This document shows, piece after piece, positions 33,917 through 40,273 of a stretch of 47,451 nt of DNA. The position numbers and the translations under genes were made by a program. The stretch is taken from NCBI GenBank assembly GCA_030066775.1, contig JASJAY010000067.1, positions 1 to 47,451 of the forward strand, read 5' to 3'. The stretch is from Planctomycetota bacterium (GTDB lineage Bacteria > Planctomycetota > PLA2 > JAEUHO01). Under the pieces are notes generated by a model. The model was not told the origin of the DNA, searched no databases, and saw only the letters and a list, made by a program, of their open reading frames with translations. How positions within the stretch are numbered: the first letter of the stretch is position 1; each line of letters begins with the position of its first letter.

Positions 33917-34990
33917 ATGGCGGACTGCGAAGGGCGTGCGAACCCCGAGGGACCGATCGAGGAGATCCGCGAGCTGCGCGACGGTGTCTCGGACGGGCTC
34001 GAGCCGCTCGCGCCCCTCGATCTCGCGCAGGTGGGCTCGGCCGACGACCTCGTGCGCGGCATGGCGCAGACGGCCTTCGCGGGGCGTCAGCTCGGCGAGG
34101 CGGCGGACATCCTCGAGGCGATGGTCAAGGATCCCGACTGCACCGTCGTGATGACGCTCTCGGGTGCGATGACGATCGCGAAGCTCGGTCTCGTCGTGTG
34201 CGACATGATCGACGCCGGCTGGGTCCAGTCGATCGTCTCCACCGGCGCGCTCATGGCGCACGGCTTCGTCGAGGCGACCGGGCGCACGCACTTCAAGTAC
34301 GACCCGTCGATGGATGACAAGGAGCTCTACGACAAGGGCTACGACCGGGTCTACGACACGCTCGAGCTGGAGCAGTCCCTCGACGACGTGGAGCACGTCG
34401 TGCACGAGGTCATGGACGCCATGCAGCCGGGGCAGCAGTACTCGAGCGCCGATCTGCACCGGGACCTCGGCAAGTGGCTGCAGCAGAACACCGAGGGGCG
34501 CGGCATCCTCCGCTCCGCCTACGAGCAGGACGTGCCGGTCTACGTGCCGGCGTTCACCGACTCCGAGCTCGGGCTCGACGTGCACATCCACACCCTGCGC
34601 TGCCGCGACGCCGGCACCCTGCCGCCCGTCTACGACGGCTTCAAGGACCTCGAGCAGTACACCGACCAGATCCTCGCCTCGAAGACGCTCGGGATCTTCA
34701 CGGTGGGGGGCGGGGTGCCGCGCAACTGGGCCCAGCAGGCGCCGCCGTACCTCGAGATCGTGCGCGTGCGCCTCCAGAAGCCCTACCCGATCCGCCGCTT
34801 CCAGTACGGCGTGCGGCTCTGCCCCGAGCCCGTCCACTGGGGCGGTCTGTCGGGCTGCACCTACTCCGAGGGCGTCTCGTGGGGCAAGTTCGTCCACCCG
34901 ACCGAGGGCGGGCGCTACGCCGAGGTCCTGGCCGACGCCACCGTCACCTGGCCGCTGATCGTCAAGGCGGTCCAGGAGCGCCTCGCCTAG
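33917..34990 (+). CDS. Deoxyhypusine-synthase-family protein
   Basis: A 357-residue member of the deoxyhypusine synthase family. The C-terminal motif EGVSWGKF supplies Lys324, equivalent to human Lys329, which forms the imine intermediate with the butylamine from spermidine. Earlier motifs include TLSGAMTIAKLGLVV and STGALMAHGFVEA, part of the NAD-binding fold. Bacteria lack eIF5A, so the acceptor is not a hypusine lysine. Bacterial relatives have been connected with polyamine metabolism, for example homospermidine- or spermidine-related steps. The ATG at 33917 has AGGAG nine bases upstream. It is the only gene in its immediate + strand unit. Confidence 0.85.
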   Translation: MADCEGRANPEGPIEEIRELRDGVSDGLEPLAPLDLAQVGSADDLVRGMAQTAFAGRQLGEAADILEAMVKDPDCTVVMTLSGAMTIAKLGLVVCDMIDAGWVQSIVSTGALMAHGFVEATGRTHFKYDPSMDDKELYDKGYDRVYDTLELEQSLDDVEHVVHEVMDAMQPGQQYSSADLHRDLGKWLQQNTEGRGILRSAYEQDVPVYVPAFTDSELGLDVHIHTLRCRDAGTLPPVYDGFKDLEQYTDQILASKTLGIFTVGGGVPRNWAQQAPPYLEIVRVRLQKPYPIRRFQYGVRLCPEPVHWGGLSGCTYSEGVSWGKFVHPTEGGRYAEVLADATVTWPLIVKAVQERLA

Positions 34991-36258: not shown

Positions 36259-36930
36259 ATGGCGCCCGACCCCGGTCCCCCGAACACGACGCCCGTCAGC
36301 GATGACGTTCGCGCCCGGCTCGACGCGTACCTGTGTGCCGTGCTCGACGCGAGCCGGCGCGTGAACCTGACCGGGATCCGCGCGGACGACGTCGAGACCG
36401 CACGTCGCGCGCTCGTGACGCCCTCGTATGCGCTGCTCGGGGGATGGGAGCGGAGCACGCCGCCCGCGACCGTGCTCGACATCGGCAGCGGCAACGGCTT
36501 CCCGGGCGTGGTCGCGGCCGTGGCCTGGCCCGATGCCCGCGTGCTGCTCGTCGAGCGGCGGAAGAAGAAGGCTGCGGCGATCGAGCGCTGCCTCGCGTCC
36601 GTCGGGATCGGGAACGCCGAGGTCTTTGCTGAGGACGTGCGCGAGACGGCCGCCCACCGGCCGGCGCTGCGCGAGCGCGTCGACCTCATCACGGCGCGCG
36701 GCGTGGGCTCGCTCGCCGACGTCAACCGCCTGGCCGCGCCGCTGCTCGCACCGGGTGGGCGGGTACTCCACTGGAAGGCGACGAACACGCCGGCAGCCGA
36801 GCTCACCGAAGGCGACGCCGTGGCGCAGGGCCTGGGCTGGTCCGCGCGCCGCGAGTGGCGGTTCGAGCCCGTGCCGCCGGGGCCCAGCCGGCTCGTCGGC
36901 TATGAGCGGCCGGCGGAGCCGTCGGCATGA
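36259..36930 (+). CDS. rsmG: 16S rRNA (guanine-N7)-methyltransferase RsmG-like
   Basis: This 223-residue SAM-dependent methyltransferase modifies G527 of 16S rRNA in relatives. The SAM motif VLDIGSGNGFPGVV is followed by LLVERRKKKAAAIERC and FAEDVRET, and ITARGVGSLADVNRL is the RsmG-typical fourth motif, with Arg in TARG. It is of standard length. The start is ATG 36259. Its stop overlaps the start of the glycosyltransferase-deacetylase gene (ATGA). In many bacteria rsmG is next to mnmG or parA; here it is not, and instead lies beside glycolipid and NTP-hydrolase genes. Confidence 0.9.
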   Translation: MAPDPGPPNTTPVSDDVRARLDAYLCAVLDASRRVNLTGIRADDVETARRALVTPSYALLGGWERSTPPATVLDIGSGNGFPGVVAAVAWPDARVLLVERRKKKAAAIERCLASVGIGNAEVFAEDVRETAAHRPALRERVDLITARGVGSLADVNRLAAPLLAPGGRVLHWKATNTPAAELTEGDAVAQGLGWSARREWRFEPVPPGPSRLVGYERPAEPSA

Positions 36931-38501
36931 GCGCCGCGGCGCCGGCGGCGCCCGAGCTGAGCGTCGTCGTGCCGGCCTTCGACGAGGCCGACCACATCGC
37001 GGCGAACCTCGAGCGCCTGCTCGCCTGCCTCGAGGCGTCCCCGCGGACCTTCGAGGTCATCGTGGTCGACGACGGCAGCCGCGACGGCACCGCCGCGGCG
37101 GCGGAGGCGATCCACCACGCGGCGCTGCGCGTGATCCGCCGCGAGAAGAACCGCGGCAAGGGCCGGGCGCTGGAGCACGGCGTCCTGGCGGCCCGCGGCG
37201 CTTTCATCGTGCTGCTCGATGCGGACCTCGAGATCCCGCCTGAGGAGATCGATCCGCTGCTGACGCGGCTCGAAGCCGACGACGTCGACCTGGCCCTCGG
37301 CACCAAGTACGGCGCGGCACAGGACGACGCGTGGCCGCTCTACCGCCGCGTGCTCTCCCGGCTCTACCAGGGCGTCACGGCGCTGCTCTTCCGTCTGCCC
37401 TTGCGCGACACACAGACGGGGCTCAAGGCGATCCGCGCGCCAGTCGCACGGCGGCTCGTGCCGCATCTCCGCTGCCGCCGCTTCGCCTGGGATCTCGAGT
37501 TCGTGCTGCTCGCCCTCGAGACCGGCCACGGCTTCGTCAGCGTGCCCGTGCGCCTCGAGCCCGCGGCGCGCGCGTCGCGCGTCGGGTGGCGCGGCGCGTT
37601 GCTCGCCGCCGTCGACACCGTGCGCATCTTCGTGCGCCATCGCTGGCTCGGACACTACGCGCGGGCGCACACGCCGCGCGACACGCGACGGACGCGGCGG
37701 ACCCAGCTGCTGGTGAGCGGCGACGACCTGGGCCTGAGCGAGGACGTGAACGACGGGCTTGTCGCGGGCCTGGAAGCGGGGGGGCTCTGCTCCGTCTCGG
37801 TGCTTGCCTGCGGGGACGCCGCGCGCGCCGGCCTCGACGCGCTGACGTCCCGCGCGCCCGGCGCCGACGTCGGCCTGCACCTCGATCTCTTGCGCGGTCG
37901 CTCGCTGCTGCGATATGCCGCGCTCTCCGTGCTCGGCCGCGCGACGCAGCCCGGGGTCGAGCTCACGCGGCAGCTCGACGCGCTCGGCGCGCATCGCACA
38001 CGGCTCACGCACGTGGACGCGCATCGCCACGCCTGGTGCTTGCCGTGGACCCGTCGCCGTGCGCTCGCGGCGGTGCGCGCCGCGCGCATCCCGGCGGTGC
38101 GTTCGCTTTCCCCGTGCGGGCCGGTCTTCGACCGCGGCCTCGTGGAAGGGGCCAAGCGCTTGGTGCTGCGCGGGCTCGCCACCTTCTCCGCCGGCCAGGA
38201 GCGTCTCCACGGCCTGGCCGCACCCGACGGGTACGTGGACGTCGCCGAGGCGCGCCGCTGGGTGCGCGCCGGCCGTCTGCCCGCCTGGGTCCGCGGCCGC
38301 ACCTTGGAGGTGATCGCCCATCCTGCCCTCGGCGCTGGGGCGGTCCCCGCCGGCGAGAGCGGCACGCTCGACCGGGCGTCGGACGCGCAGGCGATCCTCG
38401 ATCCCCCCCTGGCCGAGGCGCTCGCCCAGCTGGGCGCCGACGTGCTTTCCTTCGACGCCCTCCGAGCGCCTCGACCGAACCCCGAACGGAGCCCCACGTG
38501 A
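36927..38501 (+). CDS. Fused family-2 glycosyltransferase and YdjC/ChbG-type deacetylase
   Basis: This 524-residue protein combines two enzymes. Residues 1-240 are a soluble polyprenyl-phosphate-type GT2 domain: VVPAFDEADHIAANL, VVDDGSRDG, metal motif LLDADLE and RDTQTGLKAIR. Residues about 260-510 are a YdjC-like metal-dependent deacetylase: SGDDLGLSEDVN, GLHLDLL and HVDAHRHAW carry the expected metal and catalytic Asp/His residues. Known separate pairs with this logic are FlmF2/NaxD (undecaprenyl-phosphate HexNAc made then deacetylated) and HpnI/HpnK (glucosaminyl hopanoid). I infer sequential HexNAc transfer to a lipid and N-deacetylation by one chain. It overlaps rsmG and the mazG-like gene by four bases each. 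Confidence 0.85.
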   Translation: MSAAAPAAPELSVVVPAFDEADHIAANLERLLACLEASPRTFEVIVVDDGSRDGTAAAAEAIHHAALRVIRREKNRGKGRALEHGVLAARGAFIVLLDADLEIPPEEIDPLLTRLEADDVDLALGTKYGAAQDDAWPLYRRVLSRLYQGVTALLFRLPLRDTQTGLKAIRAPVARRLVPHLRCRRFAWDLEFVLLALETGHGFVSVPVRLEPAARASRVGWRGALLAAVDTVRIFVRHRWLGHYARAHTPRDTRRTRRTQLLVSGDDLGLSEDVNDGLVAGLEAGGLCSVSVLACGDAARAGLDALTSRAPGADVGLHLDLLRGRSLLRYAALSVLGRATQPGVELTRQLDALGAHRTRLTHVDAHRHAWCLPWTRRRALAAVRAARIPAVRSLSPCGPVFDRGLVEGAKRLVLRGLATFSAGQERLHGLAAPDGYVDVAEARRWVRAGRLPAWVRGRTLEVIAHPALGAGAVPAGESGTLDRASDAQAILDPPLAEALAQLGADVLSFDALRAPRPNPERSPT

Positions 38502-38842
38502 CCCTCGACGAGCTGCAGGCCGAGATCCGGCGACTGACCACGGGCATCGAGCATCCGCGGGTGGGGGCGGCCCTGGCGCTCGCCGAGGAGTGCGGCGAGG
38601 TCATGCGCTGCATCCTGGACCGCGAGTACTACGGCAAGCACGACGACGCCGCGCTCCAGGACGAGATCGGCGACGTGCTGGTCGCGCTGGCCGAGGTCTG
38701 CGATCGCTTCGGGATCTCGCTCGCGGCGAGCGCCGAGGGCGCCGTCGCCAAGCTCGAGCGCAAGGCGCCGAAGTGGAAGGAAGAGCTCGGCGAGCGCTTG
38801 GTCGAGCTACGGCGGCGCATGGACGGCCCTGACGCGCCGTGA
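38498..38842 (+). CDS. MazG-like nucleotide pyrophosphohydrolase
   Basis: This 114-residue all-alpha NTP pyrophosphohydrolase has the MazG signature EECGEVMRC and then DEIGDVLVALAEVCD, giving the E-x-x-E ... E-x-x-D magnesium site. It probably hydrolyses (d)NTPs to monophosphates as a house-cleaning enzyme. The start is a GTG at 38498 that overlaps the preceding stop by four bases (GTGA) with GGAG upstream, so it is the last gene of a three-gene translationally coupled run. Its end is 9 bases from the convergent EamA gene, with a 12-base palindrome GCTCAGCTGAGC between them. Confidence 0.85.
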   Translation: MTLDELQAEIRRLTTGIEHPRVGAALALAEECGEVMRCILDREYYGKHDDAALQDEIGDVLVALAEVCDRFGISLAASAEGAVAKLERKAPKWKEELGERLVELRRRMDGPDAP

Positions 38843-38851
38843 CGCGCACGC

Positions 38852-39787
38852 TCAGCTGAGCAGCGTCATCACGACGACGCCCGCGATCGTCACCATCGTC
38901 GCCGTCAGTCCGCGGCGGGTGATGCGTGCGCCGAGGAAGAGCGCCGAGAGCGGAATCAGGTAGACGGGCATCAGCGAGTTCAGCACCGTGGCGACGCCCG
39001 TGTGCTCGGCCCACTTGAGTCCGAGCTGGTTCAGCCAGATGCCGAGGAACGTGCCGAAGAAGGCGGCGCCCGCCACCCGGAAGCCGACGTGGCGCTGGAT
39101 CACCTCCTTGCTCCACGTGACGACGCGCATGGCCGGCAACCCGATCACGACGAGCCCGAGCGTGCCCGCGATCATGCGCACCGCGGCGCCCTCCTCACCG
39201 GGGATGTCCGCCAGGTTCAGTCCGTGACGCGCCGTGAGGATCGCGGCCGCCTGGCAGAGCGCCGCGATCACGGCGTCGCGCACGCCGCGGGCGTAGTGCG
39301 TCCGGTGGCGCGCGTCCTTCGGCTCCTCGAGCACGGCCAGCACGATCCCGCCGAGGCAGAGCCCCATGCCGGCCCAGGCGAACGTGCCCGGATGCTCGCG
39401 GAAGGGCGGCAGGATCGCGCCGATGGCCACGATGACGGGGTACATCGTGAAGATCAGGCTCATGCGCTGCGGCCCGATGGCCAGCAGGCTGCGCATCAGG
39501 AACGTGTCGCAGATCGCGAGGCCGAGCACGCCCGACGCGATGAACCACAGGAGCGGCTCGCGCGGCAGGCCGACCGGCAACGGCGCGCCCGTCAGGATCC
39601 AGACGAGCAGCACGAAGCACACGCAGGACGTGACGTTCTTGCCGAGGTTGATGGCGAACGCCGACACGGGCGGATGGATGCGCGCGAAGACCACGCCCGA
39701 GGACGCCCACAAGAGCGCGGACAGCGCCGCGGCAACTTCCCCCGCGTAGGGGAACGGCGCGACGGCGAGGACGGGCGCGATGGCCAT
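38852..39787 (-). CDS. EamA/DMT-family membrane transporter
   Basis: This 311-residue integral membrane protein has about ten hydrophobic helices in two similar halves of five. The first begins GEVAAALSALLWASSGVVFARI and the second DAVIAALCQAAAILTARHGL. This is the EamA duplication of drug/metabolite transporters, which move small metabolites; the substrate is unknown. Conserved features include ICDTFLMRSLLAIGPQRMSL at the first-half end, with a matching LGARITRRGLTATMVTIAGV in the second half. I used ATG 39787, where homology starts, although the frame extends further upstream. Confidence 0.88.
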   Translation of the reverse strand: MAIAPVLAVAPFPYAGEVAAALSALLWASSGVVFARIHPPVSAFAINLGKNVTSCVCFVLLVWILTGAPLPVGLPREPLLWFIASGVLGLAICDTFLMRSLLAIGPQRMSLIFTMYPVIVAIGAILPPFREHPGTFAWAGMGLCLGGIVLAVLEEPKDARHRTHYARGVRDAVIAALCQAAAILTARHGLNLADIPGEEGAAVRMIAGTLGLVVIGLPAMRVVTWSKEVIQRHVGFRVAGAAFFGTFLGIWLNQLGLKWAEHTGVATVLNSLMPVYLIPLSALFLGARITRRGLTATMVTIAGVVVMTLLS

Positions 39788-39871
39788 GGCGCGGCAGCGT
39801 ACGGGATGGCGCGGGGAAACCGCCTTTTCCCCCCGTTCCGCCCGGATCTTCGAATCGCTGAACGACTGCCC

Positions 39872-39890
39872 GAATGTGCGACAGCAATTC
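39872..39890. promoter_or_regulatory. Second copy of a GAAT-TGCGACAGC-AATTC motif
   Basis: GAATGTGCGACAGCAATTC lies in the 153-base divergent gap between the EamA and HEAT-repeat genes. It matches 8333-8353 (GAATTTGCGACAGCGCAATTC) except for one substitution and a two-base gap. Both sit upstream of genes, which suggests a shared regulatory or start-associated sequence. Confidence 0.35.
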
Positions 39891-39940
39891 GACGCCGTAG
39901 CCGATGGAGGAGTACGAACCACATCACAGGGGATGATCCG

Positions 39941-40273
39941 ATGACCACCGTCCCGCCGCATGACGCGGTGCTGCTCTCACTTCTTTGGAGCACGGAAGGA
40001 GGTCTCGGCGCCGCGCAGCCACCCGAGGGCCACGAGGTATTCATCCTGTTGGAGCGGATGGGGACGCGCGCCATCCCGCTGCTCGGCGACACGCTCGAGA
40101 CGTCCAGCCACGGCCCCACGATGCGCATGGCCGCGGCGTGGCTCCTGGGCCGCATCGGCGGCGACCGGGCCGCCCAGGTGTTGCGCGGGGCGCTCGGCTC
40201 ACGCGACCGGAACGTCGCCGGCGCTGCGCGCTCGGCGCTCGAGCGGATCGATCGCCGGCGCTTCGCCGCGTAG
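39941..40273 (+). CDS. Small HEAT-repeat-like protein
   Basis: A 110-residue cytoplasmic protein with no signal peptide. From about residue 28 it consists of two or three helical hairpins of HEAT/PBS-lyase type, for example LLERMGTRAIPLLGDTLE, MAAAWLLGRIGGDRAAQVLR and LGSRDRNVAGAARSALERI. Such repeats usually mediate protein-protein contacts. The ATG at 39941 follows AGGGGATG. The reading frame extends upstream, but that sequence is not protein-like. Its end is nine bases from the convergent gene. No partner is obvious. Confidence 0.6.
   Translation: MTTVPPHDAVLLSLLWSTEGGLGAAQPPEGHEVFILLERMGTRAIPLLGDTLETSSHGPTMRMAAAWLLGRIGGDRAAQVLRGALGSRDRNVAGAARSALERIDRRRFAA

Follow-up and report, generated by a model that had tools for sequence, protein, structure and literature searches.

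Described systems pair a family 2 glycosyltransferase (GT2) with a deacetylase of the YdjC family. In Francisella, FlmF2, a GT2 that uses polyprenyl phosphate and an N-acetylated hexosamine (HexNAc), is followed by the YdjC-family deacetylase NaxD on the route to lipid A galactosamine, a pathway reportedly described by Llewellyn and colleagues in 2012, in a paper that PMC8149597 cites. HpnI and HpnK, which act in glucosaminyl hopanoid synthesis, likewise comprise a GT2 followed by a YdjC deacetylase. A related logic is found in mycobacteria, where PpgS (Rv3631), with the help of a small membrane protein (Rv3632), makes polyprenyl-P-GalNAc for the galactosamine of arabinogalactan, and factors not yet identified flip and deacetylate the sugar (PMC9671496).

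A planctomycete locus joins these functional partners in a single protein. The window (the whole 47,451-nucleotide stretch of DNA that was analyzed) belongs to a 4.84-Mb draft genome and contains a gene at 36927..38501 which, like every feature given below unless marked otherwise, lies on the + strand. The gene is one open frame of 524 amino acids with an ATG start, and its product matches two Pfam domains: Glycos_transf_2 (PF00535) at residues 12-170 (7.8e-31, 107.7 bits against a cut-off of 23.3) and YdjC (PF04794) at residues 261-501 (3.3e-25, 89.9 bits against a cut-off of 29.7). An AlphaFold2 model of the full-length protein, built from 28 sequences (mean pLDDT 88, pTM 0.82), contains two well-folded domains. 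Together with Pfam, Foldseek and an alignment of six fusions, it delimits a GT2 domain (residues 10-248, 36954..37670), a linker (about residues 249-258, 37671..37700, of low confidence at 251-255) and a YdjC domain (residues 259-512, 37701..38462). Alignments that combined stand-alone YdjC sequences were misaligned near the junction and were left out of the folding input. A search for transmembrane helices found none in the fused protein, the highest 19-residue Kyte-Doolittle mean (1.66) falling within the YdjC fold.

Based on its sequence and predicted structure, the fusion is probably a bifunctional peripheral membrane enzyme of the cytoplasmic face, a polyprenyl-phosphate-HexNAc synthase/deacetylase. 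The GT2 domain would move HexNAc (GlcNAc or GalNAc) from a UDP-sugar onto polyprenyl phosphate, and the YdjC domain would then strip the acetyl group, yielding polyprenyl-phosphate-HexN. This free-amine sugar donor would be flipped and then used by a membrane transferase. We favor polyprenyl phosphate as acceptor because the nearest GT2 structures use it, and an N-acetylated sugar because the YdjC domain is present. Deacetylation would occur on the cytoplasmic side, before flipping, since the GT2 needs a cytoplasmic nucleotide sugar and the protein has no helix that could carry the YdjC domain across the membrane. Such an enzyme would share with FlmF2 and NaxD the pairing of a polyprenyl-phosphate HexNAc GT2 with a YdjC-family deacetylase, but the Francisella system consists of two proteins with an ArnC-type GT2, whereas the fusion is one protein whose GT2 lacks membrane helices. 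Similarly, PpgS is a small GT2 whose family model matches the GT2 of the fusion over nearly its full length and whose product is later deacetylated, but by a separate factor, with or after flipping, whereas the fusion has a deacetylase built in and is proposed to act before flipping.

A search of 99 genomes, in which the relatives are Planctomycetota metagenome-assembled genomes, identified the fusion in six genomes, all from a single Planctomycetota family (G000, G001, G003, G007, G010 and G011). The five orthologues span nearly the whole fused query without an internal stop at 46-61% identity in that search, with 43-60% identity given for the fusion across the six genomes. In their alignment, all six fusions retain the start, the position of the linker and the two active sites. 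In all six carriers the fusion follows rsmG. In the window, rsmG (36259..36930; Pfam GidB) overlaps the start of the fusion by 4 nt (ATGA), and the stop of the fusion is overlapped by a gene for a MazG-domain protein (38495..38842; Pfam MazG; start codon uncertain); both are conserved neighbors. The wider gene order is deoxyhypusine synthase, hypothetical protein, rsmG, fusion, mazG, EamA, hydrolase and GCS2/CBS protein. This wider order is conserved whole in the two relatives whose flanks are long enough to show it, and partially in the others.

In four members of the family that lack the fusion (G004, G005, G006 and G008), rsmG and mazG are directly adjacent, separated by 11-34 bp. This clean empty slot indicates that the fused gene was gained or lost as a single unit. 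PF04794 has no match anywhere in G002, G004, G006, G008 or G009, and G005 has one match elsewhere in its genome. Conservation of the fused frame in six independent assemblies, together with the clean empty slot, rules out an assembly or frame artefact. A plasmid or phage origin was also considered, and no record of either kind reaches 80% coverage of the fused query.

The genes adjoining the fusion are housekeeping or unrelated genes and do not indicate a pathway. An EamA-family transporter gene (38852-39961, - strand) adjoins mazG. EamA transporters and the ArnE/ArnF flippases fall within one broad family, but this gene is also present in relatives without the fusion, which argues against a dedicated role. 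The deoxyhypusine synthase-family protein (33917-34990) is a bacterial member that is conserved in the neighborhood, matches Pfam DS at 2.9e-79 and falls under every NCBIfam equivalog cut-off. The contig that carries the G003 fusion also encodes a second, unfused YdjC protein (L254:1796-3883, on G003:C109).

The GT2 half retains the motifs expected of an active transferase. Both aspartates of D48-D49 in the nucleotide-binding motif VVDDGS (37068..37073) are invariant in the six fusions, as is the DxD-type metal/donor motif D98-A-D100 (37218..37226). In a 28-row alignment, widened by 21 unfused GT2s of other phyla and by one GT2 from a planctomycete, D49 and D98 are invariant and D100 is conserved in at least 90% of rows. 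When the whole model was compared with the PDB by Foldseek, the first 22 matches were all DPMS, ArnC or GtrB, to which the GT2 half aligns with E values of 9.5e-14 to 1e-10, and ChbG (7vi8) followed at rank 23. On the strength of these matches of predicted models, the first half is predicted to adopt a polyprenyl/dolichyl-phosphate glycosyltransferase fold and the second a YdjC fold. DPMS, ArnC and GtrB share the catalytic fold and motifs of the fusion's GT2; they have membrane helices, whereas the fusion lacks them and continues into a YdjC domain. By sequence, too, DPMS is the best match in the PDB.

Comparison with curated families places the GT2 outside those named. The PpgS model (NF058614) aligns over positions 4-194 of 226 and scores 72.5 bits against a curated cut-off of 370, and EpsD scores about equally over a shorter stretch. 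HpnI was not among the 22 NCBIfam families found at E values up to 0.001. The fused protein passes no NCBIfam equivalog, and its substrates therefore cannot be transferred from any named family.

The YdjC half also keeps its active-site residues. The DD motif (D266-D267, metal/catalytic; 37722..37727), H318 of the GLH motif (metal-ligand position; 37878..37880), R392, and E461 and H465 of the C-terminal active-site motif E461-V-I-A-H465 (38307..38321) show no variation among the six fusions or across 23 YdjC rows. In the second histidine cluster, H362-V-D-A-H366 (38010..38024), H362, D364 and H366 are invariant in the fusions, and H362 and D364 are conserved in at least 90% of the 23 YdjC rows. 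Going by known YdjC structures, we take D267, H318, H366, E461 and H465 to be the ligand or catalytic positions. The alignment also shows that some 20 residues, found after the GLH motif in most stand-alone relatives, are missing from the fused YdjC. These results bear out the original prediction on three counts: the GT2 and YdjC domains do share one polypeptide, a 524-residue frame with two Pfam domains kept in six genomes; the DxD and the metal-site Asp/His residues of both active sites are intact on alignment; and the GT2 lacks the C-terminal membrane helices of the ArnC/GtrB type.

The YdjC domain modeled alone (pLDDT 91.3) matched ChbG 7vi8 best by Foldseek, followed by EF3048, CmCBDA and TTHB029, after which scores dropped sharply. 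All of the solved YdjC structures matched are soluble-sugar or uncharacterized enzymes, and they could be taken to mean that this half is a soluble chitobiose/cellobiose-type deacetylase unlinked to the GT2 product. ChbG and CmCBDA do share the fold and metal-site residues of the fused domain, but they are stand-alone enzymes, and the fused YdjC contains an extra, helix-bearing segment (residues 405-427, LVEGAKRLVLRGLATFSAGQERL, 38139..38207) that is missing from ChbG and from EF3048 (2i5i). At this position the profile has about 26-30 residues, against only a few in 2i5i and 7vi8, the closest solved structures by sequence. No chitin-use gene was found among the neighbors scanned, and we regard this soluble-enzyme explanation as very improbable.

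The extra segment is shared with the true HpnK proteins of the phylum (L112 and L113, which score above the HpnK cut-off as L239 and L238) and, in the AlphaFold2 model, forms a moderately amphipathic helix at residues 405-420. It is possibly a lipid-contact element. This resemblance, the precedent of HpnI and HpnK as a known transferase-deacetylase pair (PMC12583986) and the presence of a squalene-hopene cyclase in one carrier are what would be expected if the fusion were instead a direct glycolipid maker, placing HexNAc on a hopanoid or other membrane lipid and deacetylating it there, with the free-amine glycolipid as end product. The fused protein, however, scores only 44.5 and 34.6 bits against the HpnK model (TIGR03473; curated cut-off 232.6), HpnI is missing from its GT2 matches, and the structures closest to its GT2 are of enzymes that act on polyprenyl phosphate. 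Furthermore, a full cyclase match (455 bits) is confined to carrier G001, and in the other five the matches are weak and partial, at most 41.8 bits. Hopanoids are hence improbable as a common acceptor, and direct glycolipid synthesis more generally is quite unlikely. The cyclase of G001 (G001:C110:15892-16845) is the only convincing one among the 12 family genomes.

The original prediction had likened the fusion to both FlmF2/NaxD and HpnI/HpnK and had proposed a search for hopanoid and lipid A genes. The first analogy is supported by the structure search, the NCBIfam scores and the gene neighborhoods described below; the second is disfavored by the failed Hpn models and the lack of a convincing cyclase in five of the six carriers. 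On the lipid A side, lpxC is present in the genome of the window and in 11 of the 12 family genomes, both with and without the fusion. As relatives without the fusion have it too, lpxC is uninformative about a lipid A acceptor, and a role for the fusion in lipid A modification is possible.

The arrangement of GT2 and YdjC genes across the phylum also bears on the proposed synthesis and deacetylation of a polyprenyl-phosphate-linked HexNAc. YdjC is encoded in 123 of 392 planctomycete genomes. Sixty YdjC loci were read with 1.5-kb flanks and, after removal of six repeats, gave 54 distinct places, six of them the fusions. A GT2 lies within 1.5 kb in 12 of the 48 distinct unfused places. For comparison, a rough and informal estimate, which takes tens of GT2 genes in a 5-Mb genome and counts related genomes separately, gives an expectation of about 2%. 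In one case (L187) a GT2 free of membrane helices lies upstream of YdjC in the same orientation, at a distance of 15 nt, and in three others (L194, L195 and L198) such GT2s are divergent from YdjC. Elsewhere (L197, L199, L163, L140, L169 and others) YdjC is accompanied by full-length ArnC/PgfS-type GT2s with two C-terminal membrane helices. Since the linked GT2s belong to different subfamilies, GT2-YdjC linkage seems to have more than one origin, and its recurrence is the strongest support for the two domains catalyzing consecutive steps.

Relatives of the fused GT2 outside the family have a different context. One genome per species, across about 85,000 species, was scanned with a pair of GT2 motifs, and of the 154 relatives detected the 80 best were retained. 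They comprise five fusions, all from the same family, and 75 GT2-only proteins from Omnitrophota, Myxococcota, Vulcanimicrobiota, Chloroflexota and other phyla. No YdjC was found in the flanking sequence examined for these 75. Genes that recur near them encode other GT2s, a B12-binding-like protein, epimerases, an aminotransferase and a Wzx-like flippase that falls just under the Pfam cut-off, surroundings that by gene content resemble surface-glycan clusters. Because unfused relatives sit in glycan clusters without YdjC, deacetylation cannot be deduced from the GT2 class by itself. The original prediction had held that many unfused homologues with unrelated functions would count against it, and these GT2-only relatives partly bear out that concern.

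Such relatives are also compatible with a GT2 that makes polyprenyl-P-glucose or -mannose in the manner of ALG5 or DPMS, with the YdjC domain acting later or on a different N-acetylated glycan and the fusion serving co-localization only. The best PDB sequence match of the fused protein is the mannose-specific DPMS (profile 5.2e-35), and a Deinococcus relative is annotated as a dolichyl-phosphate beta-glucosyltransferase. Domain fusions, however, most often join consecutive steps, and within the phylum YdjC repeatedly lies beside GT2s of the polyprenyl-phosphate type. We therefore consider a glucose or mannose product unlikely.

In a tree, the six fused GT2s form one group beside a wide unfused clade from other phyla. 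Descent of the fusion from the phylum's own GT2-YdjC neighbor pairs is unsupported, as the fused GT2 groups away from the GT2s of neighboring genes in a tree in which the L187 and L201 branches are very long. No further GT2-YdjC fusion was found among the planctomycete YdjC frames checked. Unrelated fusions may exist outside the phylum, the scan having covered two GT2 motifs and the best 80 of 154 loci. A literature search combining YdjC, glycosyltransferase and fusion returned a review of antimicrobial-peptide resistance and no report of a GT2-YdjC fusion protein, though the architecture may already be in domain-architecture databases. What seems new is that known functional partners occur as one polypeptide, an arrangement confined, within the searches made, to some genomes of one family.

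The fusion has consequences for how YdjC proteins are interpreted. As a natural GT2-YdjC fusion, it predicts that stand-alone YdjC proteins encoded next to ArnC-, GtrB- or PpgS-like GT2s act on lipid-linked HexNAc. It also offers a single-protein model, free of membrane helices, for a deacetylation step whose enzyme and membrane side are unsettled in both mycobacteria and corynebacteria (PMC9671496). Planctomycetota may, by the same token, carry surface sugars with free amines. We see an even chance for the fuller scenario, in which the fusion passes its product between the two active sites in the cytoplasm, deacetylates it before flipping and feeds a free-amine surface modification in this uncultured planctomycete family.

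Candidates for a transferase that would use polyprenyl-phosphate-linked sugars, such as a dedicated ArnT-like enzyme acting on lipid A, are widespread in the family. PMT_2 GT-C proteins are encoded in all 12 family genomes, including those without the fusion, and none of the PMT_2/GT-C orthologue groups among the 30 loci compared strictly tracks the fusion. In several family genomes, a stand-alone GT2 of a similar type is encoded no more than about 2 kb from a PMT_2 GT-C protein (L201:4624-5685 on G009:C28, and sites on G001:C29, G003:C117, G007:C264, G010:C35 and G011:C60). These GT2 and PMT_2 pairs resemble a polyprenyl-phosphate sugar synthase with its transferase.
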